A stretch of 64,000 nucleotides of DNA, taken from Bacilli bacterium. Its GTDB lineage: Bacteria; Bacillota_I; Bacilli_A; RFN20; CAG-288. Position numbers and translations under genes: made by a program. Below the pieces are notes generated by a model. That model ran no database searches, was not told the origin of the DNA, and worked only from the letters and a program-made list of their open reading frames with translations. The DNA lies in the NCBI GenBank assembly GCA_022652945.1, contig JALCRV010000006.1, forward strand, positions 62,001-126,000, written 5' to 3'. This document shows, piece after piece, positions 149-20,158 of this stretch (within the stretch, counting starts at the first letter, position 1; each line of letters opens with the position of its first letter).

Positions 149-2095
149 ATGAGCGAAAATAAGTATACAGCAGATAACCTAACCTTGCTTAAAGGGTTGG
201 AACCGGTCAGGGAACGTCCGGGCATGTATATCGGCTCGACCGATATCAATGGCCTCCATCATCTGGTCTGGGAAATCGTCGATAACGCGGTGGATGAAGC
301 TAACGCCGGTTACGGGAAAAATATCTACGTGACCATCCACGCCGATAATTCGATCACCATCGAAGATCAAGGCCGCGGTGTCCCCTGCGATTTTAACCAT
401 AAGGAAAAGATGTCGGGCTTTGATATGGTTTACCGCACGTTGCACGCGGGCGGGAAATTCGATGATTCGAACTATAAGACCGCCGGTGGCCTCCACGGGG
501 TCGGCGGAGCGGTTGTTAACGCCTTGTCCTCCTGGATGGAAATCCATTCTTACCGCGATGGGGCTGATCATTTTATCCGTTACGATCACGGCGGGACTAA
601 AGAGTCTCAGGTGGTCGTCACCCCTTTAACCAAAGTCAGTAAAAGAGGGACGAGCGTCACTTTCTTACCTGACCCGAAGATCTTTGAAGATACGAATTTT
701 GATTATCAGAAGATCGCTTCGTCCTTAGATGATCGGGCCTGCCTGACTAAAGGAGTCTCCTTCCATCTGGTCGATGAAAGATCAGGACGTAAGCAGGATT
801 TCCTTTATGAACAGGGCATTTCCGAGTATTTTACTACCCACGCTTTCGGCAAGACTCCGCTTTGCGACCCCATTACGATCGAAGGGGAAGCGGAAACGAT
901 CAGGGTGGAGTTTGTCGGACAGTTCTACTCCGATTCTTATTCGGAAAATATCGCCGCCTTCGCTAACGGGGTCAGGACTCCTGAAGGCGGACATCACGTG
1001 ATCGGCTTGAAGAAGGCCCTCACAGTCACTTTCAATAAATACGCTTCCGACCATAAACTGATCAAGGCTAACCAGTCGCTAGATGGGAGCGATATCCGCG
1101 AAGGTTTCGCCTGCATCCTTTCGGTCTGGGTCCCGGAAAAGATTTTGCAGTTTGAAGGCCAGACTAAGGCCCAACTCGGCACTAAGGAAGCCTTGGTGGC
1201 GGTTGATGAAGTTATCGAAAGCAAACTTTCGTATTACCTTGAAGAACACGCTAACGAAGCTAACGCTATCATCGATAAATGTCTCCAGGCCCAAGAAGCC
1301 CGGGAAAAGGCTAAGGAAGCCAAAGATTCGATCCGCAAGATGTCTAAAGCCGCTTTTAAGGAGGCTAGCAATCTTTCGGGTAAGTTAACTCCGGCTAGCT
1401 CGAAGAATTATAAGCTTAATGAGCTATTTATCGTCGAAGGCGACTCCGCCGGCGGCTCAGCTAAAAAATGCCGTGACCGTGAACATCAGGCCATCTTGCC
1501 TTTAAGAGGCAAGCCGAAGAATGTCGTCGGGGAGGATCGGGGTGACATTTACGATAATAAGGAACTGAATACGATTGTCTTTACAATCGGGGCGGGCGTC
1601 GATGAAGATTTTAAGGTCAAGGATATGCATTATGACAAGATCATCATCATGACCGATGCTGATGATGATGGCTGCCACATCCAAAACCTACTGATGGCTT
1701 TCTTCTTTGAGCACATGAAGCCTTTGATCGAGGCCGGACATCTTTATATCGCTTGTCCTCCTTTATATAGAGTGGCTAAAAAAGGCCAGGAGATCTATTG
1801 CTGGACCGATGAAGATCTTGATGTCGCCAGGCAGAAAATCGGCCCGGGTTACGTCCTTTCCCGTTATAAGGGCTTAGGCGAAATGGATGCTGATCAGCTC
1901 GGGAAGACCACCATGAGCCCCTTATCCAGAAAACTTGTCCAAGTCGTAATCGACGATGTGGATGAATGCGAGGATAAGGTCACTTTGTTCATGTCTAAAT
2001 CCACCGCCGATAAGAGAAGAGAATGGATCGACTCCAATGTCGATTTCGGCTTCCACAAAGACCATTTTGAGGAGATAAAGAACCATGAAGAATAA
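149..2095 (+). CDS. parE: DNA topoisomerase IV subunit B
   Basis: This is the ATPase subunit of topoisomerase IV, which with ParC unlinks daughter chromosomes. The 648 residues contain the GHKL ATP site (E42 and N46 in WEIVDN, D73 in EDQGRG, the GGLHGVGG loop at 113-120), the transducer domain, and a TOPRIM domain with EGDSAGG near 430 and the metal-binding DADDDG near 501. GyrB has the same architecture; the assignment as ParE rests on the parC gene that overlaps it by 11 bases and on the lack of gyrase traits in that partner. The start follows a consensus -10 box by about 30 bases. It is the first gene of the operon. Confidence 0.93.
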   Translation: MSENKYTADNLTLLKGLEPVRERPGMYIGSTDINGLHHLVWEIVDNAVDEANAGYGKNIYVTIHADNSITIEDQGRGVPCDFNHKEKMSGFDMVYRTLHAGGKFDDSNYKTAGGLHGVGGAVVNALSSWMEIHSYRDGADHFIRYDHGGTKESQVVVTPLTKVSKRGTSVTFLPDPKIFEDTNFDYQKIASSLDDRACLTKGVSFHLVDERSGRKQDFLYEQGISEYFTTHAFGKTPLCDPITIEGEAETIRVEFVGQFYSDSYSENIAAFANGVRTPEGGHHVIGLKKALTVTFNKYASDHKLIKANQSLDGSDIREGFACILSVWVPEKILQFEGQTKAQLGTKEALVAVDEVIESKLSYYLEEHANEANAIIDKCLQAQEAREKAKEAKDSIRKMSKAAFKEASNLSGKLTPASSKNYKLNELFIVEGDSAGGSAKKCRDREHQAILPLRGKPKNVVGEDRGDIYDNKELNTIVFTIGAGVDEDFKVKDMHYDKIIIMTDADDDGCHIQNLLMAFFFEHMKPLIEAGHLYIACPPLYRVAKKGQEIYCWTDEDLDVARQKIGPGYVLSRYKGLGEMDADQLGKTTMSPLSRKLVQVVIDDVDECEDKVTLFMSKSTADKRREWIDSNVDFGFHKDHFEEIKNHEE

Positions 2096-4700
2096 AAAAG
2101 AGCCCATCCAGGATAACCAGATCATCGCCCCGACCCCGATGCCGTCGGTCATGGCCGATGATTTCGCCCGCTATGCGAAAGCCGTCTTATCTGAACGTGC
2201 GATCCCGGATGTCCGCGATGGGTTAAAACCCGTCCAAAGAAGAATCATCTACGGCATGTATAAGGAAGGGAATACCTTCGATAAGCCCACCAGAAAGTCT
2301 GCGACGACTGTCGGCTACGTCATGGGTAATTTCCACCCGCACGGGGATTCTTCCATCTACGATGCCTTAGTCCGTCTTTCCCAGGATTGGAAGATGGAAG
2401 CTCCTCTTGTCGCCTTCCAAGGCAATAACGGCTCTATCGATGATGATCCGGCGGCCGCTTCACGTTACACCGAGGCGAAGTTGGCGAAGATTTCCAATCT
2501 TTTAGTCGATGATATCGATAAGAACACCGTACCGATGGTTCTTAACTTTTCTGATGAATTGCTTGAACCCACCGTCCTTCCGGCTCGTTTCCCGAATCTT
2601 TTGGTTAATGGAGCCCAAGGCATCGCGGTCGGGGCAGCGACATTGATCCCGACCCATAATTTAGGGGAAGTCATCGATGCTTCCGTCTACGCCGTGGAAC
2701 ATAAAAGAGCCACGGTTGCGGATTTAAGGCAGTTTATCCTCGGGCCGGATTTCCCGACCGGAGGTCTTATCGACCAACCGGAAGAACTGAATAAACTTTA
2801 TGAGACCGGCTCCGCTTCCTTTTATATCCATGCGACTTGTCAGATCGATCAAACTAAGAACCAAATTGTCATTACCGATATCCCTTACGGGGTGATTAAG
2901 TCCGCTTTCGTCGCCGCCCTTGATAAGTTTAAGGACGATAACCATATCGATAATATCCTGGAAGTCCGGGATGAATCGACTGCGGATGTGAGGATCGCCA
3001 TCGATATCAAAGAGGGCCAAGACCCCGCGCCGATCCTTTCTTTCCTACGCTCTAAAGGTGTCTTAAGAACCACCTTCGCCGCCAATATGTTGGCTATCGA
3101 TAAAGGTCATCCGAAGACGATGAACCTTTTGGAGATTATCCGTGCTTATCTCGATCACCAAGTCGATGTGATCACCAGGCGTTCTAAGTTCGATTTAGAT
3201 AAAGATACTAAACGCCTCGAGGTGGTCGAAGGCCTGATCAAGGCGGTCGATATTATCGATCCTTTGATCCAGATCATTAAGAAGTCTAAAGGGAAGCAGG
3301 AAGCGAAAGACAATATCATCAAAGCGTTCGCCTTCACTCCCGACCAGGCGGAAGCGATCGTCATGCTTAACCTTTATAAGATATCCTCGTTAGATTATCA
3401 GGGCTACGTAGATGAAAAAAAGTCTTTAACAGATGAAATCAGCGAGCTTAATCGCCTTCTTTCCGATCGTGATTACCTCGATCGGCATATCGTTAACGAC
3501 TTAAAGGCCGTGAAGAAAGAATACGCCATTCCGCGTAAGACCCAAATCCTCGATGGGAAGATCAAGACCATCGAAGTTGACCAGACCTCCTTGATCGCCA
3601 AGGAAGACTGCTACGTGGTTTTGACCTCCGATGGCTATATTAAAAGGACCAATGTCCGTTCCTATCAGGCTTCGACGAATGGGAATATCGAGGCCGATTT
3701 ACCGGCCTTGAAGCCGGGGGATGGAATCCGTCTATTGCAGAAATGCTCCACCCACGATGGCATCCTGGCCTTTTTAGGGACCGGGACTTATATCTACTTG
3801 CCGGTTTATCAGCTTCCGGAACTTAAATGGAAGGAAGAAGGCAAGCATCTTAATGTCTTGGTGAAGAACCTGACGGGCGCTGATCAGGTGGTTTCCGCCT
3901 TTGTCATCACCACTTTTGAACCGTTAGTCTATTTGGCTTTGCTGACTAAAGAAGGGAAGATCAAGCGTTGTAAACTAGCTGATTTTACCCAGGTCAAGCT
4001 GACCTCCAGGCCTTTAAGAGCTATCGGGCTTAGTAAAGACGATTCCCTGATTAAGGTCTGCTTAACGACTGGAAATTCCGATTTAGTCATCTGCCAGGAG
4101 AACGGGCTGGTCTGCCGTTATAATGAAAATGAAGTGCCGGTTGTCTCCTTAGGGGCGGCCGGGGTGAAGGCGATGAATCTCGGAAAGGGGAATCCGCCGG
4201 TCTCTTACTTATTGTCTTTAGCCCCCGATGAACATGTGAAGCTTTTGATCTTGGCTGATATGGGAGCGGTGAGAGCCGTGATGTCCACTAACCTCGATGT
4301 CTTGCCACGTCTTTCCTCGAAGCAGGCTATCGTGAAGATCTTTAAGTCCAATCCGATGGCGATCGTCACCCTTTATAAGGCGGAGATCACCAGAGGCGAC
4401 GAACAGAAGATCGTCGCTTATACCGATCGGAGGGATTTTGTCATCGATATCAAGTCTTTGGAGACCGTGTTGCCGGGCTCGGGCATGAAGGCTAACTTGG
4501 ATTTAGAATCCGGGGAGCTTTTAAAAGGCGTCCATGAGGAAGGAAGCCAGATCGATGAGCACGTGAGGGTTGAAAAACCCTTGATTGTGGAGTCGGTGAA
4601 GCCTAAGGATGAGTCCGGGGCTAAGCAGATGTCACTATTCGATTTATTCGAGCAGGATGAGGGCGGGGAAGATCCTTCTTCCTCTTCTAGTGCCTCCTGA
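2085..4700 (+). CDS. parC: DNA topoisomerase IV subunit A
   Basis: This is the DNA-cleaving subunit of topoisomerase IV, 871 residues. The winged-helix region holds QRRIIYGM and the quinolone-interaction segment [12 protein letters not shown] at 84-95, with the usual Ser89 and Asp93, so no classical quinolone-resistance change is visible. The catalytic tyrosine is Y128 in [10 protein letters not shown]. The C-terminal beta-pinwheel region lacks an evident GyrA box, which supports ParC over GyrA. The protein ends in an acidic, Ser-rich tail. The ATG lies inside the end of parE, after a GGAG box in the parE coding sequence, so translation is probably coupled. Confidence 0.93.
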
Positions 4701-4733
4701 TCGATTTTAGGCTATAATCCACTTAGAGGCAGG

Positions 4734-5279
4734 ATGGTTCATAATCTAGTCTCCGATTATCGGGCAAGTTCGGTTTACGAGGTCGATCCCTTAAAGATCA
4801 AGGCCTTGGGGTTTAAGTATATCCTGATGGATTTAGATAATACATTAGCTCCTTACGATATCTTGTTGCCGGAGCAGAGGACTTACACCTTGATGGAAGC
4901 TTACCTGCTGGCGGGGCTAGAAGTCATCTTAATTTCTAATAACACCAAAAAGCGGACTTTGCCCTTCAGTTCCCATCTTTCCTTGAATTGCCTTTATTCG
5001 GCTCATAAGCCTTGTAAAAGGAAAATCGATCGTTTCCTGAAGAAGGCTTCGTTAAGTAAGGAGAAGACCTTGTTGATCGGGGATCAAGTGATCAACGATA
5101 TGTATCTAGCCCATAAGCTGGGTGTGAAAGGATTATTGACCGATCCGATCAGCAAAAAAGACCATATCTCCGCTAAACTGATCCGTCCGCTTGATACTTT
5201 TTTAAGAAATCGTTACCGCAAACAAGGAAGATTAGGCATCCTACTGGAAAAAGATGAAAAGGAGGTCCAGCAACTATGA
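4734..5279 (+). CDS. yqeG: YqeG-family HAD phosphatase
   Basis: This is a HAD superfamily IIIA phosphatase of the YqeG type, 181 residues. Motif I is DLDNTLAPYD (nucleophile Asp near residue 33), motif II is ISNN, the motif III Lys lies in KPCKRK, and motif IV is GDQVINDM. The substrate is not established for the family. It begins the Firmicutes ribosome-maturation cluster yqeG-yqeH-yqeK-rsfS; B. subtilis has aroE, yqeI and nadD in between, which are absent here. The stop overlaps the yqeH start as ATGA, preceded by GGAGG, so the two are coupled. Confidence 0.88.
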   Translation: MVHNLVSDYRASSVYEVDPLKIKALGFKYILMDLDNTLAPYDILLPEQRTYTLMEAYLLAGLEVILISNNTKKRTLPFSSHLSLNCLYSAHKPCKRKIDRFLKKASLSKEKTLLIGDQVINDMYLAHKLGVKGLLTDPISKKDHISAKLIRPLDTFLRNRYRKQGRLGILLEKDEKEVQQL

Positions 5280-6421
5280 GACAGAAAGTCACGTTAACTA
5301 GTCAGATCCGCATTCAGCGTTGCTCCGATTGCGGAGCGATCCTCCAGAGCGAAGATCCTTCCTCCCCGGGTTATTTATCCCAAGAGAGAGTTATTAAAAA
5401 GCAGGATCAAGGCTTATGTGACCGCTGCTACAATCTTAGGCATTATAATTCACCCGGCGACCCGGAATTCGGGGCGGATTATATTAAAATCCTGAAAAAG
5501 GCCACAACGTCAGGGGCTTTAGTCGTCTACGTCCTCGATCTTTTCACCTTGGAATCTTCCTTCGTCCCGGAAATCGGGGCTTATTTAGGGAAGAATGTCT
5601 TAGTTGTCTTAAATAAAAGGGATGTCTTACCGAAAGATGAAGATGATAATAAGCTGATCGGGGATGCGAAAAAACGCTTGGTCTTAGAGCATATCGTTCC
5701 GACCGGCGTGATGGTCACTTCTTCGGCTAAGAATATCAATATCGATGCCTTTTTAAAAGAGATCAACGCCCTGCGTAACGGGAAGGATGTCTACTTTATC
5801 GGGGCCTCTTCGGTGGGGAAGTCGTCGTTAGTCAATTCGATCCTCCGCCGCTATAAAAATGAAACCGATAGGGTAATCCAGACCTTGAAAGTCGAAGGAA
5901 CCAGACTCGAAGTGATGGAGATCCCGCTTGATCAAGAGTCTTCAATTTTTGATACTCCGGGTATCTATAACCCGAAATCGCTTTTAAACCAAGTCGAAAG
6001 AGCGGCCTGGAAGTACTTAGTCCCGAGAGAAGAAATCGCTCCCAGGGTCTACCTTTCCCAGCCGAACCAAGCCTTCGTTTTCGGAGGGGTGGCGGCTTTC
6101 GAACTGGTAAGCGGAGGGAAGACGGAATTCACTTTCGCTTTCTCTAATGAAGTTGCGATCACTAGGACCAAGGCCCTGAATCTTGAGAAGACTTTCGCTT
6201 CCTTAGCTCAGACAGATCAAGTGAAGCCGACTTCCGCTTATATTAAGTCTCTTAGCGATCTTGAGAAGAAAGAAATCGCGATCCCGGCTTCCGGGAAGAT
6301 GGAGCTTTCTTTGTTCGGGTTAGGGAAGATCACTTTCTCCGGGGCGAATCAAAGGATTGCGATCTATCTGCCGCCCCACGTCGGAGTTAAGGCGATCGTC
6401 ACCGATCCTGATTTTAATTAA
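5276..6421 (+). CDS. yqeH: Circularly permuted ribosome-biogenesis GTPase YqeH
   Basis: YqeH is needed for 30S subunit assembly in Bacillus. The 381 residues begin with a zinc finger (C16xxC19 and C48xxC51). The GTPase motifs follow in permuted order: G4 NKRDVL and G5 SSAK first, then G1 GASSVGKSSL, and G3 DTPG. A C-terminal domain of about 150 residues completes the protein, as in other YqeH proteins. It overlaps yqeG by four bases and is followed after one base by the next start, so it sits in the middle of a tight operon. Confidence 0.93.
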   Translation: MRQKVTLTSQIRIQRCSDCGAILQSEDPSSPGYLSQERVIKKQDQGLCDRCYNLRHYNSPGDPEFGADYIKILKKATTSGALVVYVLDLFTLESSFVPEIGAYLGKNVLVVLNKRDVLPKDEDDNKLIGDAKKRLVLEHIVPTGVMVTSSAKNINIDAFLKEINALRNGKDVYFIGASSVGKSSLVNSILRRYKNETDRVIQTLKVEGTRLEVMEIPLDQESSIFDTPGIYNPKSLLNQVERAAWKYLVPREEIAPRVYLSQPNQAFVFGGVAAFELVSGGKTEFTFAFSNEVAITRTKALNLEKTFASLAQTDQVKPTSAYIKSLSDLEKKEIAIPASGKMELSLFGLGKITFSGANQRIAIYLPPHVGVKAIVTDPDFN

Positions 6422-6422
6422 C

Positions 6423-7466
6423 ATGGCGGAAAAAGTCCTGCTTTTCGTTTCTTCTTTCGATCCTTATCTTTTAACTGATCACCTCATCTTATTAAACGGG
6501 GTTAAAAATAAGGCTTTTACAAGGGTGAATTTTCTGGTGAAGAAAGATAAGACCCCCTTTAAAGAGAAAGAAAAGCTGATTAAAGCCGCCGTAGATGGTT
6601 TATCAGGATTAACTTATTCAATTGAAGAATATGAAGAGCTGGAAAAGGGAATCGAAAAAAAACGTTTAGAAGGCTCAGGAGACTTTTATTACCTTTATGC
6701 GCCTATTTTATCTATAGAAGAAAAAAAGAAGCTTACCGCCTCTTATAAAGGGCTTAAAGAGTATTCCTGTGGCTTAGAGGACTCTTTATCCCAAGAAGAG
6801 TATTTAAAAAGGCAGGAAGAGATACGCTTAGGACGTTCTTTTCTCCTTCCTTTAGCTTCGATCAAAGTCCTTTTAGAAGAAAAGATGTACTTTGTTCCGC
6901 AAGTCCTTCCTTATTATAAAGAAAGGCGCTACCAGCACTGCTTAAGGGTCGGAGAAGTCGCCTTCAATATCGCTTTAAAGAATCATTTAGACCCTTATAA
7001 GGCTTATTTAGCTTCTTATTATCACGATATCACCAGGGCGGGAGCTAAGCTCTCCTACGAGAAAAGAGCTAAGGAAGAAGAAGGGCAGTATTTTAAAAAC
7101 TGCGAAGTCCCTTCCTGGGTCTTGCATCAGTTCACCGCACCTATGCTCCTAAAAGAAGAATTCCACTTAGAAGACGAGGAAGTCCTGGAGGCTATTAAGT
7201 ACCATACGACCGGGAAAAAAGAGATGTCGTGGCTCGGGCAGGTGCTCTACGCTTCCGATAAGATCGAACCGGGCAGAGGTTACGCCTCTTCGGGGCTTAT
7301 CGAGAAGATGGAAGAGAATTACCAAACCGGGTTTAAGGCGGTGTTAGAAGCCAATGCGGAGTATTTATTCGAAAGATTAGGTAAAGACGGGATGGACGAT
7401 AAGTTAACCGAAAGCTGTCTCGCTTATTATCTGAAAGGGGATTCTCGATGGACTACGATAGCTTAA
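6423..7466 (+). CDS. yqeK: YqeK-type HD phosphohydrolase with degenerate NadD-like N-terminus
   Basis: The C-terminal half (from about residue 165) is a YqeK HD domain: HCLRVGEVA, the YYHDI metal pair, HQFTAP, YHTTG and SDKIEPGRGY. YqeK enzymes hydrolyse diadenosine tetraphosphate symmetrically. The first 160 residues look like a decayed nicotinate-nucleotide adenylyltransferase: a SFDP remnant near residue 10 and a C-terminal VP/Y-type helix survive, but the HxGH and ISSTxxR motifs do not. The ATG at 6423 was chosen because an upstream in-frame start at 6357 would overlap yqeH by 65 bases; the chosen start lies one base after the yqeH stop. It probably lacks NadD activity. Confidence 0.82.
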   Translation: MAEKVLLFVSSFDPYLLTDHLILLNGVKNKAFTRVNFLVKKDKTPFKEKEKLIKAAVDGLSGLTYSIEEYEELEKGIEKKRLEGSGDFYYLYAPILSIEEKKKLTASYKGLKEYSCGLEDSLSQEEYLKRQEEIRLGRSFLLPLASIKVLLEEKMYFVPQVLPYYKERRYQHCLRVGEVAFNIALKNHLDPYKAYLASYYHDITRAGAKLSYEKRAKEEEGQYFKNCEVPSWVLHQFTAPMLLKEEFHLEDEEVLEAIKYHTTGKKEMSWLGQVLYASDKIEPGRGYASSGLIEKMEENYQTGFKAVLEANAEYLFERLGKDGMDDKLTESCLAYYLKGDSRWTTIA

Positions 7467-7819
7467 AGACCGCTAAAAAGCTCGCTGCCGCCTTGGATTT
7501 CCATAAAGGCGAAGAGGTGAAGTTATACGATGTATCAGCTTTAACACCTTTAGCCTTATACTATATCGTCGCTTCTTTTTCCTCCGCAAGAAGAGCTTCG
7601 GGGGCCGAGGATGAATGCGAAGAGATCATCTATAAAAACGGCGGGAATCTCTCCCACGTAGAAGGGAAATCTTCTTCCCCTTGGATTCTGATCGATGGGG
7701 AAGATATCATTATCCATCTCTTCAGCGAGGAAGAAAGAGCCCGACTAAACTTCGATGAGCTCTTAAAACGCTGTCCTGAGATCGATTTTTCGTCAGAAGA
7801 ACCTGAAAAGGGGGAATAA
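7448..7819 (+). CDS. rsfS: Ribosomal silencing factor RsfS
   Basis: RsfS binds ribosomal protein uL14 and blocks subunit joining when nutrients are scarce. The 123 residues show the family pattern: KLYDVSALTPLALYYIVAS, then VEGKSSSPWILIDGEDIIIHLFSEEERARLNFDEL, which is the WxLlDxGdvvvHxF signature. It overlaps the end of yqeK by 19 bases and is followed closely by mtn. The order yqeK-rsfS is conserved across Firmicutes and makes the call secure despite the short length. Confidence 0.9.
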   Translation: MDYDSLKTAKKLAAALDFHKGEEVKLYDVSALTPLALYYIVASFSSARRASGAEDECEEIIYKNGGNLSHVEGKSSSPWILIDGEDIIIHLFSEEERARLNFDELLKRCPEIDFSSEEPEKGE

Positions 7820-7822
7820 ATT

Positions 7823-8557
7823 ATGAAAACAGCCTTAGTTGTCTGTGCGATGAAGGAAGAGTTAAGTGAATTAATCGGGAAGCTTCCGGAAGCGAAAAAG
7901 ACCAAAATCGGCCTGATTGAAGGGTTTTCTTTCCAGGTCGGAAGCCAGGATTTCTTCGCTTTTGAAGGGATGATAGGGAAATCTAACGTCGGGTTTGATG
8001 TGGGCTACTTAGCCGGGCAGATTGAAATCGAGAGGATTTTTTCTCTCGGGGTCGCCGGCTCTTTAAAAGATGATATCGTGCCTTTAAATGTCGTGGTAGC
8101 CGATAAAGTCTGCTATTACGATGTCGATGTCACCTCGGGTGGGTCGAAATACGTTTTGGGTCAAATGCCCGGCTGTGAGCTTTATTTTAAAGCGGATGAG
8201 AAGCTCGTCAACTCGGTTAAGGACTTGAATACGACCTTGACCATCCACGTGGGGACGATTATCACCGGAGACTCGTTCGCGACTAAGAAGAATATGACTA
8301 GTGACCTCTTAAGCCATTTTGATAATCCTTTAGCGGTCGATATGGAATCCGCTTCCTTAGCTCAGGCCGCTCAAAGACTTCAGGTCCCGTTCATCTCCAT
8401 AAGAGGCATCTCCGACCAGGTGTTCACCCAGGCTGACAATGGCGAGGTCTTCGATGAGTTCTTATCCTTATCAGCCAGAAGAGCTGCCTCGGTCTTCCTT
8501 CATATGGTTAAGAATGAGTTTGTAAGCGATGAAGAAGAGATCGGCGAAGATAAGTAA
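7823..8557 (+). CDS. mtn: 5'-methylthioadenosine/S-adenosylhomocysteine nucleosidase
   Basis: The enzyme cleaves methylthioadenosine and S-adenosylhomocysteine to adenine and the thioribosyl compound, which recycles methyl-cycle and polyamine by-products. The 244 residues carry the expected active-site positions: E12 in AMKEEL, the LGVAGS loop, VDMESASLAQ (ribose-binding Glu) and RGISDQ (catalytic Asp). It starts three bases after rsfS and is the last gene of the + strand operon. An acidic tail (DEEEIGEDK) extends past the usual end. Confidence 0.92.
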   Translation: MKTALVVCAMKEELSELIGKLPEAKKTKIGLIEGFSFQVGSQDFFAFEGMIGKSNVGFDVGYLAGQIEIERIFSLGVAGSLKDDIVPLNVVVADKVCYYDVDVTSGGSKYVLGQMPGCELYFKADEKLVNSVKDLNTTLTIHVGTIITGDSFATKKNMTSDLLSHFDNPLAVDMESASLAQAAQRLQVPFISIRGISDQVFTQADNGEVFDEFLSLSARRAASVFLHMVKNEFVSDEEEIGEDK

Positions 8558-8614: not shown

Positions 8615-9031
8615 TTTAACCTTAAAGGCTTTATCATTTAATTATAAGGATGAAGTGTCTTAACAGATTTAAAAGATGTCTAAACGGGTCAAAACGGCGT
8701 AGAGAAGGGGCTTCGCTTCCCTTTATATTGTACTTCGTATAATGTCTATTATGTAAACTAAGCAAAACAAAAGACCGAAAGATAGGACTTTTTTAGAAAT
8801 CGGACTAAGCCAATCCACCGCCATGAAGGCTAGGAGAAGAGAACTTATCCACCGATTTTAAAAACTTACAAACGACTAGAAATATACTAATTGCCTACTA
8901 TGATAACCTGTTATCTTTACCCTGTCTAACCTTTTCCCTGCCTCGTCCCAGCTTGTTACTATGGGTAAAACTTGTTCACCGCCTTTAATCGCCTTTTTAA
9001 ATATCGTTTCCCTTTTTAACTTATCTTCCGT
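8615..9031. other. Terminus intergenic region around dif
   Basis: This gap between convergent operons has no credible gene. Besides the dif site it holds a small hairpin (AAGGG...CCCTT near 8705-8723) about ten bases to its left. The rest is AT-rich with no repeat or promoter that I can support. Confidence 0.6.
8732..8759 (+). other. dif site (XerC/XerD chromosome-dimer resolution site)
   Basis: The 28 bases read as XerC arm ACTTCGTATAA, central hexamer TGTCTA and XerD arm TTATGTAAACT. From memory, the B. subtilis dif arms are ACTTCCTAGAA and TTATGTAAACT, so 24 of 28 positions match, and the XerD arm is identical. The site lies exactly at the switch from + strand to - strand genes, as expected at the terminus, and xerD itself is 6 kb away. 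Part of it also resembles loxP, but only one arm does. Confidence 0.93.
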
Positions 9032-9091: not shown

Positions 9092-9910
9092 CTATAACCA
9101 GTGGAAGGTCTTAACAGACTTCGTCCCGTAGCGCTTCTCCAGTTCCCCTTTGATCCAGACCCCGAGTAAGTCGAAGAGGCTCATCGTCAAGATCGCAAGC
9201 AAGGTAAGTGAGAAGAGACGAGGCATGTTCACATCTATATAGGCTTGATTGATCATCCCACCTAAGCCCTGGGCGTTAGTGTAGTTCATGAAGACCTCGC
9301 CCATGATTTCGCCTTTTAAAGCTAAGCCGCTAGCCTGGAAGACCCCTAGGAAGATAGAAGGCAGGCTTAAAGGGCATAAGACAAGAACGAAGCTTTTAAG
9401 GGAATTCTTCCCTTCCAAGCTTAAAGGATCGCTGTATTTCTCCATAATGTCTTTCCCGCCTTTTAAAACAGCTTTATAGATCACTGGGAAGGTCAAAAAG
9501 GCCACGATGATATAAGAAGTGATCTTGGTATAGATAATTAAGAAGAGAATCATCGAAACTGTCGGGAAGGCGGTCATCACGTAAATCAAAGGTCGAAAGA
9601 AGGCCTCTAAGGGCTTAAAGAAAGCCGCTAAAAGGCCTAAAAGAGACCCGAGGAAGGTCGAAATCACCAAGGTAAGGATAATCCGCCCTAAGGTCATTAG
9701 AAGCGAGGTTAAGACGTTTTGTTCCCCTAAAAGAAGGAACATCCCACCTAAAGTCCTAAAAAACTCCGGGAAGGTTTCTCCGCCTAAAAGATAGATCGCA
9801 TCCCAAATCAGGACTAAGAAAAGGAAGCCGAGGAGTATATCTAAGGCATGGAAAAGGACTTTTTTCTTCTTTTCTTCTTCCTTTAAAGGATTATGATGTT
9901 CCTCTTCCAT
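9092..9910 (-). CDS. ABC transporter permease, NitT/TauT (SsuC) type
   Basis: The 272-residue protein has a charged cytosolic N-terminus and about six membrane segments. The cytoplasmic EAA-type loop lies around KYSDPLSLEGKNSLKSFVLVLCPLSLPSIFLGV, which contacts the ATPase in this family. Such permeases import nitrate, taurine, alkanesulfonates, or pyrimidine and thiamine precursors. The substrate is not clear here; neighbours deoB and an NCS2 permease point to a nucleobase-like compound (inference). It starts 17 bases after the NCS2 gene. No ATPase gene is present in the window, so the ATPase must be encoded elsewhere. Confidence 0.85.
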   Translation of the reverse strand: MEEEHHNPLKEEEKKKKVLFHALDILLGFLFLVLIWDAIYLLGGETFPEFFRTLGGMFLLLGEQNVLTSLLMTLGRIILTLVISTFLGSLLGLLAAFFKPLEAFFRPLIYVMTAFPTVSMILFLIIYTKITSYIIVAFLTFPVIYKAVLKGGKDIMEKYSDPLSLEGKNSLKSFVLVLCPLSLPSIFLGVFQASGLALKGEIMGEVFMNYTNAQGLGGMINQAYIDVNMPRLFSLTLLAILTMSLFDLLGVWIKGELEKRYGTKSVKTFHWL

Positions 9911-9927
9911 CTTTTAATTCTTCCCTT

Positions 9928-11451
9928 TTAAAGTTTCGGAGCGTGGGTGTCATCGACCCCTTTAGACTTATATTCGACCTCTTCCAGCCTTTCTTCCTTA
10001 GCTTCGTGGATCTTCAAATCCTCCGAGGCGAAATCATTTTTCGCGGTGTCTTTAATCAAATAGCAGAGGACTAAGGAAATCAGGAACATGCTGACCTCCG
10101 GATCCCCCATCATAAAGCCTAGAAGGACATTCTGGCCGGTAAAGGTCGTGGTGTTGAAGAAATACTTACCTAAAAGGCTGGTCCCGTAGCCTAGTCCTAA
10201 GGTGACAGAAAGGACGATGATGTTCTTTCTAGTGAACCCGGCGCGGGAAATCATCTCAAAGCCGATTAAAAGGATCGACATATAGACCATGATCATCGCC
10301 CCGCCTAAGACGCAGGAGGGTATGGATTCAAAGAAAACGGCCACGGGTGGGAAGAAAGAAAGGATAATCATCATCACGCCGCTTAAAAAGGCAACGTAGC
10401 GGTTGATGATCCCGGTTTTCCCCGCGAAGCCGACGTTTTCCGTTGACGTGGTGATCGGCATCCCGCCAAAGAGGCAGGAACAGGCCGAAATCAGCCCGTC
10501 GAGGAACAGTCCCCCGCTGATTTCCCTGTCGTTAGCCGTCCGGTTATAACAGACGTGGGCGGAAGCGACCATATCCCCGGAGCTTTCCGAGGAGGAAACT
10601 AGATAAATCAAGCAGATAAAAAGCACCGCTTCCCAGTTAAACTTCAGCTTAGTAAGGTCAAAAGGGCGCGGGACATTGATATAATCCTCCGCTCCTTTCA
10701 TCCCGAAATAACTGAAATCAATAATATGCAGGGCCGGATAGATGGCGTTAAGGATCAAAGCGCAGATGTAGCCCATCAAAAGCCCGACGATAATATGGAT
10801 GTTCCGCCAGGCTCCTTTGACGTGGAGGTTCCAAATGATGGCGGAGGTCAGACTGATAAAGCCGCAGAGGATAAAAGGCCAACCGTTGCCAAAAGAATAT
10901 AGTTCGTCGGTCGATAACGAAAGGACACTCTCGACGGCGAAGAACTGCTCCGCACCCAATTCAGCTAACTCCAGTCCGACGGCGATTAAAACGACCGCGG
11001 AGACTAAAGGAGGGATAAATCGGCGCCAATATTTAGCAAAAAGACCCATCACCATCAAAAATAAGGCACCAATTAAGGCAGACAGCAAAGTGACTCCAAG
11101 GTCGTTATAGGTGGAGTTCACCTGCATCAAAGCCCCGATAAAGGTGAAGGAGGTGCCCATCAGGTTAGGTAATTTTGACCCGAAGGGATAAAAGCCCAGA
11201 CACTGGAGGATCGTTCCGATCCCCGCCCATAATAAGGCGCCAGTTAAGGCATTGACGGTCAGATAGTGATCGCCCAAAGAGCCGAAGACGACTAAGATCG
11301 GGGTGACGTTAGAAAGAAACATCACCAGAACTTGTTCGAAAGCGAAAACTCCGGCCCGTTTAAAAGGCACGTAGCCGTCGACCGACATCAGGTTCTCATT
11401 TTTCCCTGCTTTAACAAAGTTTTTAAGTCTTTCCAGTGGCCGAACCATCAT
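9928..11451 (-). CDS. NCS2 xanthine/uracil permease
   Basis: This is a nucleobase:cation symporter of the NCS2 (UraA/PbuX) family, 507 residues with about 14 hydrophobic segments. It has the TM8 acid in SSSESSGDMVAS and the family signature ENVGFAGKTG, equivalent to the QNxGxxxxT motif that contacts the base. The xanthine branch is more likely than uracil, but the exact base cannot be read off. Two ATGs in a row start the ORF after AAAGGAAGG. It has its own -10 box and follows a terminator, so it may be transcribed apart from the upstream lipoprotein genes. Confidence 0.88.
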   Translation of the reverse strand: MMVRPLERLKNFVKAGKNENLMSVDGYVPFKRAGVFAFEQVLVMFLSNVTPILVVFGSLGDHYLTVNALTGALLWAGIGTILQCLGFYPFGSKLPNLMGTSFTFIGALMQVNSTYNDLGVTLLSALIGALFLMVMGLFAKYWRRFIPPLVSAVVLIAVGLELAELGAEQFFAVESVLSLSTDELYSFGNGWPFILCGFISLTSAIIWNLHVKGAWRNIHIIVGLLMGYICALILNAIYPALHIIDFSYFGMKGAEDYINVPRPFDLTKLKFNWEAVLFICLIYLVSSSESSGDMVASAHVCYNRTANDREISGGLFLDGLISACSCLFGGMPITTSTENVGFAGKTGIINRYVAFLSGVMMIILSFFPPVAVFFESIPSCVLGGAMIMVYMSILLIGFEMISRAGFTRKNIIVLSVTLGLGYGTSLLGKYFFNTTTFTGQNVLLGFMMGDPEVSMFLISLVLCYLIKDTAKNDFASEDLKIHEAKEERLEEVEYKSKGVDDTHAPKL

Positions 11452-11469
11452 TAAATACCTTCCTTTGAC

Positions 11470-11475
11470 ATTATA
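11470..11475 (-). promoter_or_regulatory. -10 box upstream of the NCS2 permease
   Basis: TATAAT on the - strand lies 19-24 bases before the permease ATG. The -35 position falls inside the preceding terminator and matches poorly, so strength and regulation are unclear. Confidence 0.5.
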
Positions 11476-11482
11476 CTCCTTT

Positions 11483-11513
11483 AAAAAAGCCCTTTTAAGG
11501 GCTTAAAAGGGCT
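11483..11513 (-). terminator. Terminator between lipoprotein and NCS2 permease genes
   Basis: On the - strand AGCCCTTTTAA pairs with TTAAAAGGGCT around the loop GCCC and runs into six T. The perfect 11-base stem separates the deoB/lipoprotein transcript from the permease pair. Confidence 0.85.
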
Positions 11514-11542
11514 AGTAGATGCTTAAAAGGCTGAAAAGCTGT

Positions 11543-12658
11543 TTATGAAGGAAAATATGAAGAAAATAAGCTGGTGTCGATGGAAGGAAAACCCGTGATC
11601 TTGGCATCGCTCAGAAAGTCATTAAGCTTAAAGGACAGCGGGTTAAACCCGAACGGGTTAGCGCTATTAGTAAAAGAAGGAAGGTTGACGATTGACTTAA
11701 TCATGTTTAAGGGCAGATTAAAGACATCCTCGGTCTTATATAAGCCGGAGGAAGTGTCGTTTTCCAAAATCTGGATGGCTTTTTTCCCTTGGTTCAGCTC
11801 AAAATCTTCCCCGGTTTCAGCAATCTTATCTAAAAAGGCGCTGACTTCAGCCTTTTTAGTCTGATCATCCTCCAAGGTCTTGGAGATGAAGATTCCCGCT
11901 TGCGGGAATCCATCGTATCCTAGACCGTTATTCAGCTTTTGCTCTTTTGAATACTCCTGCCACTTTTCAGTTAAGTTAGCGTAGATAGAGGTCGTTAAGG
12001 GGGCGGAAGAAGAATCCGTCGCCTTTTTAAGCATAAGCTTAGTCACCATCGGCTCGCTTAAAAGCACATAATCTACGTCTTCCCCGTTATTTAGCCCCGT
12101 ATCCGCCACCGTATAAGCCACGGAGACATCGCTGACTTCCGTCAATGTGGAGACGTTATAGACCTTCTTAAAAATGCCTGTAAAGAGGGAGTTAGTCCCG
12201 AAAGAGACGATCTTATCCCCTTCTTCAAGGGTTTTATTGGCGTCCTTTCCGGTGGAGATGATAAAGACATTTCCCTTAGTTAAGACCCCGGCCAATTTAT
12301 AATTGAAGGAATTAGCCTTGATAAGCTTAGCTCCGACATTCAGATCGAAGACCACAGCTCCGTATTCTTGAGTGGCAAAGGCCGCTCTGACATTAGCGGG
12401 GGCAGCAAAACTCAACTGGCCTTGGTAACCTTTTAAAAACGGCGTAAAAGCCATCGAAGGGGCGCCTTTCGGGCAGATAGCCTTAAAAGAAAACGGCGTC
12501 ACATCATCTAAGCCGGCTTCTTGTGATGAGGAAGCTGGTAAAGAGCTATTTAAGCTTTCTAAGGAGGAAGAAGAGGCTAAGCTTGAGGAACTTACTTCCC
12601 CGCAGGAAGCTAAAAGACTAAACGATAAAAACGGGACGATCCATAATGACTTCTTCAT
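11543..12658 (-). CDS. Solute-binding lipoprotein of a NitT/TauT-type transporter (paralog 1)
   Basis: This is a 371-residue exported lipoprotein. The lipobox LLASC puts the lipidated Cys at residue 19, followed by a Ser-rich linker to about residue 48. The mature part has CPKGAPSMAF, YGAVVFDLNVGAKLI and DYVLLSEPMVTKLM, features of periplasmic-type domains in SsuA/TauA/NMT1-like proteins. It is clearly paralogous to the next gene upstream (for example KLAGVLTKGNVFI against KLARVNTYGNCFL). It probably delivers substrate to the permease at 9092-9910. Confidence 0.8.
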   Translation of the reverse strand: MKKSLWIVPFLSFSLLASCGEVSSSSLASSSSLESLNSSLPASSSQEAGLDDVTPFSFKAICPKGAPSMAFTPFLKGYQGQLSFAAPANVRAAFATQEYGAVVFDLNVGAKLIKANSFNYKLAGVLTKGNVFIISTGKDANKTLEEGDKIVSFGTNSLFTGIFKKVYNVSTLTEVSDVSVAYTVADTGLNNGEDVDYVLLSEPMVTKLMLKKATDSSSAPLTTSIYANLTEKWQEYSKEQKLNNGLGYDGFPQAGIFISKTLEDDQTKKAEVSAFLDKIAETGEDFELNQGKKAIQILENDTSSGLYKTEDVFNLPLNMIKSIVNLPSFTNSANPFGFNPLSFKLNDFLSDAKITGFPSIDTSLFSSYFPS

Positions 12659-12688
12659 ATCTAATATTTCTCCAGATTCTATTAGCCC

Positions 12689-13759
12689 TTAGGCTACGAT
12701 TCCATTGTAATACGAGGAGTAGGAAGTGTTAAGCACTTCGCTCGTCCAATAGTGCTTAAAGTTCTTCTGGCAGTTCTCCTCGAAGCCTTTTAAATCGACC
12801 GGATAGGAACAAAAGCCCATGGCGTTAACACCATACGGGCTTTTCGAGCTGTTTAAAATCGTATAAAACTCATCTCCGCTCGCCCCAAAAGAGCTTAAAG
12901 GAGAAAAGGTCTTTTGATCTTCCCCTTGATAGAGGTAAGTGATAACTCGGCCCCCGTTATTGCGCTCTAAGGAAGTCACCATATTATCGTAAGATTCAAA
13001 AAAGTTATCGTAGGCCGCCTTAGTCCTCTTATCGGCTTGGTCTAAAGAGGCGGGGACAAAAAGCCCGCTTTCCGGATAGTGGGCATATCCCCCATCCACC
13101 AGCTGATCGGTATTAGACATCTCCTTAAAACGATCCGTAAACGAATAAAGGACTTCATAAGCGTCCGTTTCCTTTAAAAGCCGGCTGACAAAAGGCTCCC
13201 CGAGTAAGGCATAATCGATCTCTTCTTCCCCGTCTTTCCCCGTTTTCAAGGCTTCAAAGACTTCTTGCATATCCGAATAGAAGGTATCGATTAAAGGGGT
13301 TGAAGGATTATAAGAATAAAAGTAATGCAGAAGATTATTCTGGATTCCTTCATTTAGATAGTTAGCTTCGTATTTATCGTTAGCGGCATTAAAGGAGATA
13401 ATATGGGCGGAAGTTGAAACCCCGTCCTCTTTAAGGCCTTTTTTTGCTAAAAGGAAACAATTCCCGTAGGTATTGACCCGGGCTAACTTATAAGGGACAT
13501 GCTCATCTTGGATTAACTTAAGCCCCTTTTCCAAATCGAAGATAATTCCCCCGTAATCCGAACTGAAAAAGGCTTTATAAACTTCCTCGTTTTTTAAAAA
13601 GAGCACGTGGGTAGCATCATCAGCGTAAGAAGCTAAAGAAAGCCCTTTGCCGTCAGAAGGACAAATAAGCTTAAAAGTCAGGCCCTTTTGGACAAAAGAG
13701 CAGCTGGAAAGCCCGACTAGCAAACAAACTAAAGGCCAGGCCAGAGCCGTTTTCTTCAT
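12689..13759 (-). CDS. Solute-binding lipoprotein (paralog 2)
   Basis: This is a 356-residue lipoprotein with the signal peptide MKKTALAWPLVCLLVGLSSC (lipidated Cys at 20). The start at 13759 was chosen because it opens a perfect signal peptide; the longer open frame to 13855 would prefix 32 residues and overlap deoB. Motifs are shared with paralog 1: GGIIFDLEKGLKLI, DYALLGEPFVSRLL and a YPESGLFV segment. The gene begins seven bases after the deoB stop with no good ribosome binding site, so translation may be coupled to deoB. Confidence 0.78.
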   Translation of the reverse strand: MKKTALAWPLVCLLVGLSSCSFVQKGLTFKLICPSDGKGLSLASYADDATHVLFLKNEEVYKAFFSSDYGGIIFDLEKGLKLIQDEHVPYKLARVNTYGNCFLLAKKGLKEDGVSTSAHIISFNAANDKYEANYLNEGIQNNLLHYFYSYNPSTPLIDTFYSDMQEVFEALKTGKDGEEEIDYALLGEPFVSRLLKETDAYEVLYSFTDRFKEMSNTDQLVDGGYAHYPESGLFVPASLDQADKRTKAAYDNFFESYDNMVTSLERNNGGRVITYLYQGEDQKTFSPLSSFGASGDEFYTILNSSKSPYGVNAMGFCSYPVDLKGFEENCQKNFKHYWTSEVLNTSYSSYYNGIVA

Positions 13760-13766
13760 TATCAGT

Positions 13767-14954
13767 TTAAAGAATTTCCTTGACGGGTTTACCGATTTCG
13801 TTAGAAGAAGGGGTAAGTCCAAAGTTAGCCAGAACCGTAGCGCCGATATCAGCAAATGAATCTCTCTCTTCGAGCTTCTTCCCGCCTTCTAGAAGCGGAG
13901 AATAGGCCAAGAAAGGCACCTTTTCTCTCGTATGGTCGGTCCCATGCCAGGTCGGATCGTTACCGTGATCAGCAGTGACAATAAGCAAATCATCGTCTTT
14001 TAAGGCATCCATAAAGGTGTGGAGCCAGACATCGAACTCTTCGATATGTCTTCCGTAGCCGATGACGTTTCTCCGATGCCCGTATTCGGAGTCAAATTCG
14101 ACAAGGTTCACAAAACAAAGCCCGGTGAAAGGATCGTTAGAAGCAAAAGAGGTTGTAATCTTCATGCCCTCTTCATCCGAAACGGTATGGACGGTCTTAT
14201 TGACACCCTGGTGATTGAAGATATTATCGATCTTCCCGACGCAGGAAGTCATAAAGCCGTGGTCTTTTAAATCATCCATCGCGGTTCTTCCCGTCGGGGA
14301 TAAAGCGTAATCTTTGCGGTCCGGGGTTCTTTTAAAGTCTTTAGCCGAGGTTCCGACATAAGGTCGAGCGATAATTCGCCCTAAGCGATATTCCGGACGG
14401 TTGCAGATTTCCCTAGCGATTTCGCAATCCCGATACAGCTCGCTTAAAGGCACATAAGCCGTATTCGCAGCGACCTGAAGGACGGAATCGGCGGAGGTAT
14501 AAACGATCAAAGAACCTTCCTTACATTGCTTTTCGCCTAAGGAAGCGATAATCTCCGTCCCGGAAGCGGCGATATTGCCGATGATCTTACGGCCCCAGCG
14601 TTCCTCTAATTCCTTGATTAAGGCCGGAGGAAAGCCGGTATCGGTAAAAGTCTTAAAGGGCTTAGTGGTCTTAATGCCCATCATTTCCCAGTGCCCGGTC
14701 ATGGTGTCTTTACCGACCGAGGCTTCTCTTAAAGTGGTGCAATAAGCGTGAGGGTGGCTGACTTTGCTGGTGCCCAGAATCGGGGCTAAATCCCCTAAGC
14801 CAAGCGAATTCAAGGTCGGAACATGAAGCCCGCCCATCCTTTCAGCGATATGGACGTAAGTATTAGAGCCCTTATCTCCGTAGGCTTCCGCATCCGGCTC
14901 GGCTCCGATTCCTAAGGAATCAGCGACGATGACAAAGATTCTTTGGTATTTCAT
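13767..14954 (-). CDS. deoB: Phosphopentomutase
   Basis: DeoB interconverts ribose-1- or deoxyribose-1-phosphate and the 5-phosphates, linking nucleoside breakdown to central metabolism. The 395 residues have the alkaline-phosphatase-superfamily metal sites: VIVADSLGIGAEPDA at the N-terminus, the phosphorylated Thr region GKDTMTGHWEMMG, EFDSEYGHRR, VTADHGNDPTWHGTDHTREKVP. It is the first gene of a - strand operon with the two binding lipoproteins. A five-unit tetranucleotide repeat lies in its leader. Confidence 0.93.
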   Translation of the reverse strand: MKYQRIFVIVADSLGIGAEPDAEAYGDKGSNTYVHIAERMGGLHVPTLNSLGLGDLAPILGTSKVSHPHAYCTTLREASVGKDTMTGHWEMMGIKTTKPFKTFTDTGFPPALIKELEERWGRKIIGNIAASGTEIIASLGEKQCKEGSLIVYTSADSVLQVAANTAYVPLSELYRDCEIAREICNRPEYRLGRIIARPYVGTSAKDFKRTPDRKDYALSPTGRTAMDDLKDHGFMTSCVGKIDNIFNHQGVNKTVHTVSDEEGMKITTSFASNDPFTGLCFVNLVEFDSEYGHRRNVIGYGRHIEEFDVWLHTFMDALKDDDLLIVTADHGNDPTWHGTDHTREKVPFLAYSPLLEGGKKLEERDSFADIGATVLANFGLTPSSNEIGKPVKEIL

Positions 14955-14964
14955 ATCTTGGCCT

Positions 14965-14984
14965 CTTTCTTTCTTTCTTTCTTT
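14965..14984 (-). repeat. Tetranucleotide (AAAG)5 repeat in the deoB leader
   Basis: On the coding strand five AAAG units lie between the -10 box TATAAT (14988-14993) and the AGAGG ribosome binding site before the deoB ATG. The repeat therefore covers the likely transcription start and early leader. Confidence 0.75.
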
Positions 14985-15034
14985 TATATTATAAACTAGC
15001 TTCTTAAATAGATAAAGAACGATACATCCTTAAT

Positions 15035-15913
15035 CTACTTTCCCTCCATAAACCTATCATAAGCTGAAATAATCCTTTTGGTAGAGACATGAGTATAAAT
15101 CTGAGTCGTCTCAATCTTGGCATGGCCAAGCATCTCTTGGACCTGCTTTAGATTAGCCCCGTTTTCTAAAAGATGAGTCGCAAAAGAGTGGCGTAAGGTA
15201 TGGGGGCTAATCGGGGTCATCACCCCAGCCCGCAAAGCGTAAAATTTAACTTTACGCCAAAAATACTGCCTTGAAATGGTCTGTCCCTGCTTATTTAAAA
15301 ACAGATACTTACTCCCCCGGCCCGGATTATGGGAACGGACTTCTTCCACGTACTTATCGATATAATCCAAGGCGTATTCCCCGATTGGGACGATCCTTTC
15401 TTTTTCTCCTTTGCCCCTGATCTTGACGTAGCCCTGTTCGAAGTTGATATTGCCACGTTCAAGACTTAAAAGTTCCGAAACACGTAACCCCGAGGCATAC
15501 ATGGTCTCCATCATGGCTTTATCCCTGACTTCCGAGGGATCTTCAAGATTAAACCCATCGAGGAGGTCTTCTACCTCCTCGGTCGTTAAGACATTAGGCA
15601 GATGCCTCTCCCCTTTAGGCAAATAAAGCCCGATTAAGGAAATATGGATCAGATCTTCTTTTGCTAAGAACAGATAAAGGCAACGAATCGTGGTGGCGCG
15701 GCGGATAATCGTCGAGGTCATCAGGCCTTTTTTCGATAAAAACTCAATAAAATCGCTGATATCATCCCTTTTTAAAAGGGAGATATCCTTATCATTGGTG
15801 AAATCCTCAAATTGGATTAAATCATCGGTATACGTCAAAATGGTCGATTTCTCATCGCCCTTTTCAACGCTGAGATAAGCTAGAAACTCATCCCTGACCT
15901 CCGATAGTTTCAT
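15035..15913 (-). CDS. xerD: Tyrosine recombinase XerD
   Basis: This is a site-specific recombinase acting at dif to resolve chromosome dimers. The 292 residues consist of an N-terminal SAM-like domain (1-90) and a catalytic domain with the complete active site: R144, K168, H238-x-x-R241, H264 and nucleophile Y273 in QIYTHVS. The length is that of chromosomal XerC/XerD, and the motif ASGLRVSEL is typical of XerD. XerC versus XerD cannot be fully separated by eye. The ATG overlaps the dinB stop by four bases, so the two are coupled. It is 6.3 kb from the dif site. Confidence 0.88.
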   Translation of the reverse strand: MKLSEVRDEFLAYLSVEKGDEKSTILTYTDDLIQFEDFTNDKDISLLKRDDISDFIEFLSKKGLMTSTIIRRATTIRCLYLFLAKEDLIHISLIGLYLPKGERHLPNVLTTEEVEDLLDGFNLEDPSEVRDKAMMETMYASGLRVSELLSLERGNINFEQGYVKIRGKGEKERIVPIGEYALDYIDKYVEEVRSHNPGRGSKYLFLNKQGQTISRQYFWRKVKFYALRAGVMTPISPHTLRHSFATHLLENGANLKQVQEMLGHAKIETTQIYTHVSTKRIISAYDRFMEGK

Positions 15914-17097
15914 TTTTTCTCTTTCTCCTTAGCCCCCAGAGTCGTGACTAAGCCATTTAAAGAACCTTTATTTAGATCCTTCAAAAGCTTTTCCCTTTCT
16001 ATTTTAGCTTTTTCTTTCTCATTCGGGAGAGTGGAAAGAGGCGAAAATAAGGAAAGCTGGCCATCTTCTTGAACTATTTTGGTATCATCAAGCCCCACCC
16101 CGAGAAGACGCACTTTTTCCCCACGGTAAAAATCGGTAAAGACGGCAAGAGCCGCCAGATAGATGGTCTCAAAATCATTAGTATCAATCCCGATATTGCT
16201 CCTTTTTGACCGCGTGTTAAAATTCTCATCCCTAATCGTAACGACAACCGTATGGGACTTCTTCCCTTCTTTTGCTAATTCCCTACTGATATCCTTACAT
16301 AAGGAGCGTAAAAGGTCCTTTAAGACTAAAGGATCATCGCAATCCTCATATAAAGTCTGAGCCTCGGAGATCGATTTCCTCTCCCAAGAGGAAGTATCAA
16401 CTATGTCATTTCCTTGCCCGTTCGCCCAGTCTTTAAAGGTCTGATAAGAAATCCCCAGGACTTCTTTTAAGGCGGGAGAAGAAGAAGTAGCTAAATCTCC
16501 GATCGTCAGTATGCCGATTTCCCTTAGTTTCGGAGCGGTCTTTTTCCCCACGCCCCACATCTTCTCGATCTCTAAAGGCCAAAAAAGCCTTTTATAATCG
16601 TCTTTAATGACTAAAGTCAGCCCCATCGGCTTTTTATAATCGGAAGCCATCTTGGCTAAAAAGCGGGTGTGAGCATAACCGATGGAGCATTTTAAAGAGA
16701 GATCATTAAAGATTCTCAGTTGCAGATCAGTCAAAAAATCATGGGCGTTCTCATCGTTGATAAATGCGCTCATATCGATGTAACATTCATCGATTGAGGC
16801 CGGCTCCAAAATCGGGAAATCCTTCCTAAGATAGGACATAAAACGATGGGAAACATCAGAATATAAAGAATAATGCCCCGAGACAAAAATCAAACCCGGG
16901 CACATTTTCTTGGCTAGATAGGTAGGCATGGCCGAATGGACGCCAAATTTCCTCGCTTCATAAGAAGCCGTGGAGACAATGCCCCGCTTATGATCCCCGC
17001 CGACGGCGATGGGCTTGCCTTTCAATTCCGGATGCGCATTAATCTCGCACTGGGCGAAAAAGGCATTCAGATCGATATGGACGATGGCTTTTTCCAT
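15910..17097 (-). CDS. dinB: DNA polymerase IV
   Basis: This is a Y-family translesion polymerase, 395 residues. The palm acids lie in HIDLNAFFAQCE and SIDECYIDMS; KMASDYKKPMG and the thumb helix-hairpin-helix MWGVGKKTAPKLREIGI follow. A beta-clamp-binding peptide, QLSLF, sits near the C-terminus, so the protein should load on the sliding clamp. It is translationally coupled to xerD downstream. No LexA box was evident in its short upstream region. Confidence 0.92.
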   Translation of the reverse strand: MEKAIVHIDLNAFFAQCEINAHPELKGKPIAVGGDHKRGIVSTASYEARKFGVHSAMPTYLAKKMCPGLIFVSGHYSLYSDVSHRFMSYLRKDFPILEPASIDECYIDMSAFINDENAHDFLTDLQLRIFNDLSLKCSIGYAHTRFLAKMASDYKKPMGLTLVIKDDYKRLFWPLEIEKMWGVGKKTAPKLREIGILTIGDLATSSSPALKEVLGISYQTFKDWANGQGNDIVDTSSWERKSISEAQTLYEDCDDPLVLKDLLRSLCKDISRELAKEGKKSHTVVVTIRDENFNTRSKRSNIGIDTNDFETIYLAALAVFTDFYRGEKVRLLGVGLDDTKIVQEDGQLSLFSPLSTLPNEKEKAKIEREKLLKDLNKGSLNGLVTTLGAKEKEKK

Positions 17098-17162
17098 CTT
17101 TTAATCTTTTTTTCCCTTCTTGTAAATGATAGCATAAAAGCCGAAGAAAGGACTTTTTAAGG

Positions 17163-17951: not shown

Positions 17952-18032
17952 TTTTTCCTTAAAACCGTTGTTTTAGTATTAAATTAGTATATTTATAGTT
18001 GTTTCACAGTCGAACTAGACATTTTCTTCACT

Positions 18033-19691: not shown

Positions 19692-19738
19692 ACATTTTCC
19701 TCCCCATAATTATACTTCGTTTCGGCCCCTATTTTTAG

Positions 19739-19762
19739 GAAAAAAAGAGGCCCGCAGGCCTC
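19739..19762 (-). terminator. Terminator between the PII-like gene and recN
   Basis: On the - strand GAGGCC and GGCCTC pair around the loop TGCG, followed by a run of T. The perfect six-base GC-rich stem stands 30 bases after the PII-like stop, so recN probably has its own promoter. Confidence 0.85.
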
Positions 19763-19790
19763 AAAAGCTTTTAATCAAGGGTGAAAATGG

Positions 19791-20141
19791 TTACTTTTTC
19801 ATCAGACCGTAGACGTTATCGATAGGGAAAGTCATCATGAATCCCGTATCCGGCTTATTGATATCCCCAATCACCTCTAAGGCCAGCTTCACCACGCGCT
19901 GGATTTCCCCTTCCGAGGCTGCCACTAATAAAGTCTTAGAGTGAGAAGGAGAATTCTTAATCAGCGCCCTTAAGGCCTGAAAATGGTTTTCGTCTTTATC
20001 TTCCGCAACGATATGATGAGTCATCCCTTCGGAATCCAAAATCGTGCAGCCGCGGACATCGTTAGCTAAAAAAGTCTTCAGCAGCGGGTCGATTTTGCTC
20101 TGGTCGTTTAAGACGATCAGGAGTCCTTCTAATTGGGCCAT
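19791..20141 (-). CDS. PII-like signalling protein
   Basis: This is a 116-residue protein with a ferredoxin-like PII fold pattern: MAQLEGLLIVLNDQSKIDPLLKTFLANDVRGCTILDSEGM, a variable T-loop-like stretch, then KTLLVAASEGEIQRVVKLALEVIGD and a C-terminal FPIDNVYGL. It lacks the canonical GlnB signatures and the uridylylated T-loop Tyr, so it belongs to the broad PII-like group that binds nucleotides or metabolites. It lies between dxs and recN where Firmicutes usually have tlyA and argR. The ligand is unknown. Confidence 0.7.
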   Translation of the reverse strand: MAQLEGLLIVLNDQSKIDPLLKTFLANDVRGCTILDSEGMTHHIVAEDKDENHFQALRALIKNSPSHSKTLLVAASEGEIQRVVKLALEVIGDINKPDTGFMMTFPIDNVYGLMKK

Positions 20142-20158
20142 ATCTTTTTTCTCCTTTG

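Follow-up and report, generated by a model that had tools for sequence, protein, structure and literature searches.

The 28-bp sequence ACTTCGTATAATGTCTATTATGTAAACT, found on the forward strand at positions 8732..8759 of the window (the whole stretch of 64,000 nucleotides from a Bacilli bacterium that was analysed here), was almost certainly the chromosomal dif site, marking the terminus as defined by GC skew and fitting a joint explanation by XerCD, FtsK and topoisomerase IV. The dif site is the spot at the replication terminus that serves to separate linked sister chromosomes. An earlier note on this DNA had read the sequence as dif, and the present analysis confirmed that the site as such was an ordinary one. 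Beyond that reading, we observed that the xerD gene was linked to dif, that the parE and parC genes converged on it from the other side, and that a polar sequence motif changed strand there.

The site consisted of a left (XerC) arm ACTTCGTATAA, the six-base centre TGTCTA and a right (XerD) arm TTATGTAAACT, the arms being assigned to the two recombinases by the convention for Firmicute dif sites. This 11-6-11 layout was close to the Firmicute consensus, as is characteristic of sites of the XerCD type. The dif of Bacillus subtilis, which is used by CodV/RipX together with SpoIIIE/SftA, was alike in its length of 28 bp and in having nearly identical arms; the letters and coordinates given previously were exact, and the reported count of 4 differences from the B. 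subtilis sequence held. The accompanying statement that the centre was the right one was correct for its length, but not for TGTCTA itself, which departed at 2 positions from the B. subtilis centre.

A degenerate dif pattern allowing ≤3 mismatches matched only once, at 8732-8759, in the 2.09-Mb assembly (20 contigs, ~93% complete), and neither a second nor a better match was present elsewhere in it, consistent with one copy per chromosome, although an additional site might be located in an assembly gap. The runner-up on the 135-kb contig had 10 mismatches, and shuffling of the window gave no match at ≤3 mismatches in any of 100 shuffles. Among 59 near relatives, 27 possessed the site in one copy each, and a reversed control pattern produced three matches in two genomes. 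The site was also present in 137 of 198 genomes drawn from the class, mostly as a single copy and again with a low number of reversed-pattern matches, and the sites of the relatives differed from the one described here by 0 to 3 mismatches. About half of the 59 near relatives had no dif match at ≤3 mismatches, which was explained in part by divergence of the arms; the negative genomes included the small-genome families f11 and f22 as well as genomes with diverged arms. Separately, several genomes carried inverted pairs of dif-like sites, 4 to ~100 bp apart (G096:C1:505284-505343, G088:C1:764335-764394, G068:C1:1181635-1181713 and G059:C101:6473-6627). These pairs may represent a duplicated or regulated dif, or they may be remnants of Xer-using elements.

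The position of the site coincided with the replication terminus as defined by skew. GC skew was calculated for the contig in full, with a 2-kb gap read as N, and for selected stretches. The contig-wide cumulative skew, for which a turn at about 8.7 kb had been proposed, reached its peak 22 bp before dif. Of eight terminus regions compared, seven showed such agreement (G000, G002, G003, G009, G038, G051 and G056), the peak being ≤1.5 kb from dif with offsets of -364 to +1460 bp. In the eighth, G043:C1, the cumulative skew had no peak at dif, although gene direction switched there. In the window, the main open reading frames from 149 to 8557 were all on the + strand and those from 9092 to 17097 all on the - strand, as the earlier note had described. 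Over the whole contig, coding sequence to the left of dif amounted to 51.4 kb on the + strand vs 11.2 kb on the - strand, and to the right of it to 17.9 kb vs 36.2 kb. Thus, by its single copy, the turn in skew and the switch of gene direction, the site did fix the terminus in the sense of a terminus defined by dif and skew. Conservation of the site in relatives, the Xer and FtsK-gamma genes of this genome and the polar motif, all described here, lent this reading independent support. Further along the window, positions 41000-64000 had an irregular and partly reversed GC skew, and this part may be rearranged or acquired DNA.

To the left of dif were the two genes of topoisomerase IV, followed by a small + strand cluster. 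Namely, parE (subunit B; 149..2095, + strand) and parC (subunit A; 2085..4700, + strand, ~4 kb from dif) were both transcribed towards dif, and their best NCBIfam families were parE_Gpos (771 bits) and parC_Gpos (733 bits), each below the curated cut-off. The position of parC relative to dif was the same in relatives. The cluster ended in an mtnN-like nucleosidase gene (7823..8557, + strand), which was the final + strand gene ahead of dif and, as its neighbour on the left, was conserved in families f1 and f3. A pattern scan identified a weak stem-loop with a T-rich tail directly before dif (8707..8731, + strand), which may terminate the gene cluster on the left; a stronger terminator candidate in the same scan was located at 8591-8606. 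To the right of dif, all on the - strand, were an ABC-transporter permease gene (9092..9910), a xanthine-permease-like gene, genes for lipoproteins, deoB and xerD. The permease gene was the initial - strand gene past dif, and G002 and G009 likewise had it as the gene next to dif on the right. The deoB gene (phosphopentomutase; 13767..14954, - strand; NCBIfam deoB, 476 bits) was located between xerD and dif, and its adjacency to xerD has a counterpart in the ripX-drm pair of B. subtilis. The ripX gene of B. subtilis is distant from dif, whereas the xerD gene described here (15035..15913, - strand) was 6.3 kb from dif and was transcribed towards it.

The product of this gene scored 324 bits against the XerD family of NCBIfam and 275 bits against XerC, both under the curated cut-offs. 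Its best solved relative was E. coli XerD (1a0p, E 4e-55), and the alignment showed the catalytic residues R..K..HxxR..H..Y. The genome encoded a second recombinase on contig C4, with 332 bits for XerC and 303 bits for XerD (a few bits under the curated cut-off), and, on contig C5, an FtsK that included the gamma domain. Scores slightly under the cut-offs were to be expected of a divergent lineage. Since XerC, XerD and the FtsK gamma domain were all encoded in one genome, the site belonged to a classical two-recombinase system of the ordinary XerCD/dif/FtsK kind. Single-recombinase modules provided the nearest parallel for the gene arrangement, as in XerS/difSL of streptococci and XerH/difH of epsilonproteobacteria the recombinase gene is close to its own site (PMC5357621). 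The genome described here shared with them the linkage of a recombinase gene to the site. However, those systems have one recombinase, and difSL a long central region, whereas here there were two recombinases, the XerC-like one on C4 and the XerD-like one on C6, and a classical 11-6-11 site instead of a lone chromosomal Xer.

The linkage of xerD to dif was widespread in the class. The positions of dif, XerD and ParC were taken from genome searches, in which 106 genomes were searched for XerD, and the class-wide search for XerD and ParC used a sample of 80 genomes. XerD and dif were on one contig in 90 of the 106 genomes. In 73 of these 90, xerD was ≤7.5 kb from dif, while ~0.9 would be expected under random placement. 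It faced dif in all 73 close genomes and was on the side of the XerD arm in 71 of them. The genomes were related, so that such counts were not independent, and fragmented assemblies favoured near neighbours; the fairer figure was therefore that of families, 15 of 19 of which had the close linkage. In families f18, f19, f24 and f28, xerD was 50-240 kb from dif. In 50 of 71 genomes the parC gene was ≤25 kb from dif, in every case directed towards it and often converging from the side opposite to xerD. This proximity of parC extended to Bacillus-group genomes, where loci L057, L067, L094 and L108 were similar to the window in having parC ≤5 kb upstream of dif. As a side observation, in these four loci and in L126, parC was 0.7-4.8 kb from dif and faced it, and xerD was not nearby.

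Twenty neighbourhoods were compared gene by gene, and none to five genes were present between dif and xerD. The deoB gene adjoined xerD in most families examined but was lost in G226, G213, G065 and G221, where xerD was retained. Named Bacilli loci had the same deoB-xerD arrangement as the window. In G020 and G029, dif was inverted relative to the nearby xerD and/or parC or deoB in an unchanged neighbourhood, and the same inversion was observed in L051, L055, L070, L075, L093, L102, L105, L127 and L131. The orientation of dif thus seems to be unconstrained. Across bacteria, xerD has been reported to be located mostly close to the origin (Kono et al., PMC3025954), and Castillo et al., in a review (PMC5357621), suggested that gene-site linkage may be a hallmark of systems with a single recombinase. 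The lineage described here is an exception to both of these general statements, its xerD-dif pattern running contrary to them. A literature search, in which subscription papers were only partly covered, found no earlier report of xerD-dif linkage in Bacilli.

The linkage was probably a frozen ancestral gene order without functional meaning. Chromosomal inversions are mostly symmetric about the axis from origin to terminus, so that genes adjacent to the terminus stay in place. Accordingly, the deoB-xerD pair was usually intact and the order was stable inside families, parC had a similar but weaker linkage to dif, and the four families that lost the linkage of xerD evidently manage. Nevertheless, the variable number of intervening genes, the loss of deoB in several genomes where xerD stayed, and the flips of dif in place indicated that the order was not frozen gene by gene. 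Inherited gene order was the simpler reading of the linkage, and selection was possible.

The octamer RGGGAAGA, with the core AGGGAA, is a candidate FtsK-orienting (KOPS) motif of this genus. The contig contained 70 copies, comprising 38 + strand copies to the left of dif, 30 - strand copies to the right and 2 in the opposite orientation, so that 68 pointed towards dif and 2 away. In the window, six + strand copies to the left of dif (3953..7704; starts at 3953, 4665, 5587, 6115, 6322 and 7697) and 27 - strand copies to the right (9406..55476; starts from 9406 to 55469) were all directed towards dif. No + strand copy was present to the right of dif in the window, and a lone - strand copy to the left, at 7673, was directed away. 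The motif was sparser and less strictly polar in the other sampled stretches of the genome; a lower density away from dif is expected of KOPS, which are concentrated near dif. The point that best split the motif by strand was at dif or within ~1 kb of it, and for bare GGGAAG it was at 1.0-1.9 kb. The best split intervals of the congeners G002 and G003 contained dif or ended ≤300 bp from it, and in G000 dif was inside one of two equal best intervals. In G002, the octamer was not enriched and the AGGGAA core alone was polar. Under a gene-direction control, no k-mer was conspicuous outside the genus, and a motif common to the order was not found.

Known motifs of this kind are GGGNAGGG in E. coli, GAGAAGGG in B. 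subtilis (SRS) and GAAGAAG in Lactococcus lactis (PMC6466248). Like them, the motif described here was short, purine-rich, G-containing and strongly polar, with a strand bias on both replichores that switched at dif and was independent of gene direction; it differed from them in its AGGGAA core, which took the longer form RGGGAAGA in two of three species. On this DNA, the known motifs themselves were rare or tracked gene direction. The E. coli motif was rare and of unclear polarity. A copy of the B. subtilis SRS at 8702-8709, ~22-23 bp before dif, was a coincidence, with three copies on the contig and no significant polarity. GAAGAAG was skewed in G000 yet tracked gene direction, and it was therefore not accepted as a guide.

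An alternative was that leading strands rich in purines, together with coding bias, and not guidance of FtsK, accounted for the polarity of RGGGAAGA. Many purine k-mers were indeed skewed here, GAAGAAG following gene direction as this explanation would have it. We regard it as rather unlikely. Other purine 8-mers with 4-5 G pointed towards dif 1005 times and away 621 times, compared with 68 and 2 for RGGGAAGA (Fisher p 7e-12), and AGGGAA exceeded the remaining A3G3 hexamers with p values of 4e-13 in G000, 2e-4 in G003 and 4e-7 in G002. Under the gene-direction control, AGGGAA was the top of all hexamers in each of these three congeners independently. Moreover, in genes transcribed against replication the motif was antisense, and thus directed towards dif, in nine cases and sense in none, so that gene direction did not explain its polarity, and in non-coding DNA 5 of 5 copies pointed towards dif. 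The bias therefore went beyond gene direction and base composition. Few motif sites were common by alignment (10 of 99 in G003 and 4 of 44 in G002), which also spoke against the compositional explanation. As to the site itself, Xer-exploiting mobile elements are generally known to use dif-like sequences, but an attachment site or dif-like remnant (of the IMEX, pdif or SCC type) was highly improbable: the site was present once, lacked a repeat partner, had a housekeeping neighbourhood that many families conserved, and was exactly at the switch of skew and polar motif.

The XerCD/FtsK pathway of dimer resolution is established, and with a chromosomal dif the present observations could be combined as follows. 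FtsK at the septum, presumably guided by a polar motif of the RGGGAAGA type, would pump DNA until it met XerC and XerD bound at dif. Its gamma domain would then activate XerD, XerCD would turn chromosome dimers into monomers, and topoisomerase IV would remove the catenanes left over. The parEC and xerD genes, which flank dif and converge on it, would have kept an arrangement inherited from an early ancestor, and this arrangement may or may not be selectively maintained.

With the dif site, the terminus of an uncultured lineage can be placed at an exact coordinate. In practice, dif and the terminus can be sought in fragmented Bacilli assemblies just downstream of deoB-xerD, and the gamma domain of FtsK from this genus would allow a direct test of the candidate motif. 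Both this motif and the linkage of xerD to dif deserve the notice of specialists. We put forward only tentatively, as possible rather than probable, the combined proposal that deep-branching Bacilli have a parEC-dif-xerD terminus locus kept by selection and that RGGGAAGA is a previously undescribed FtsK-guiding motif in this genus. If this were true, the selection might act, for example, by having XerD or topoisomerase IV supplied locally, or by keeping transcription facing dif.
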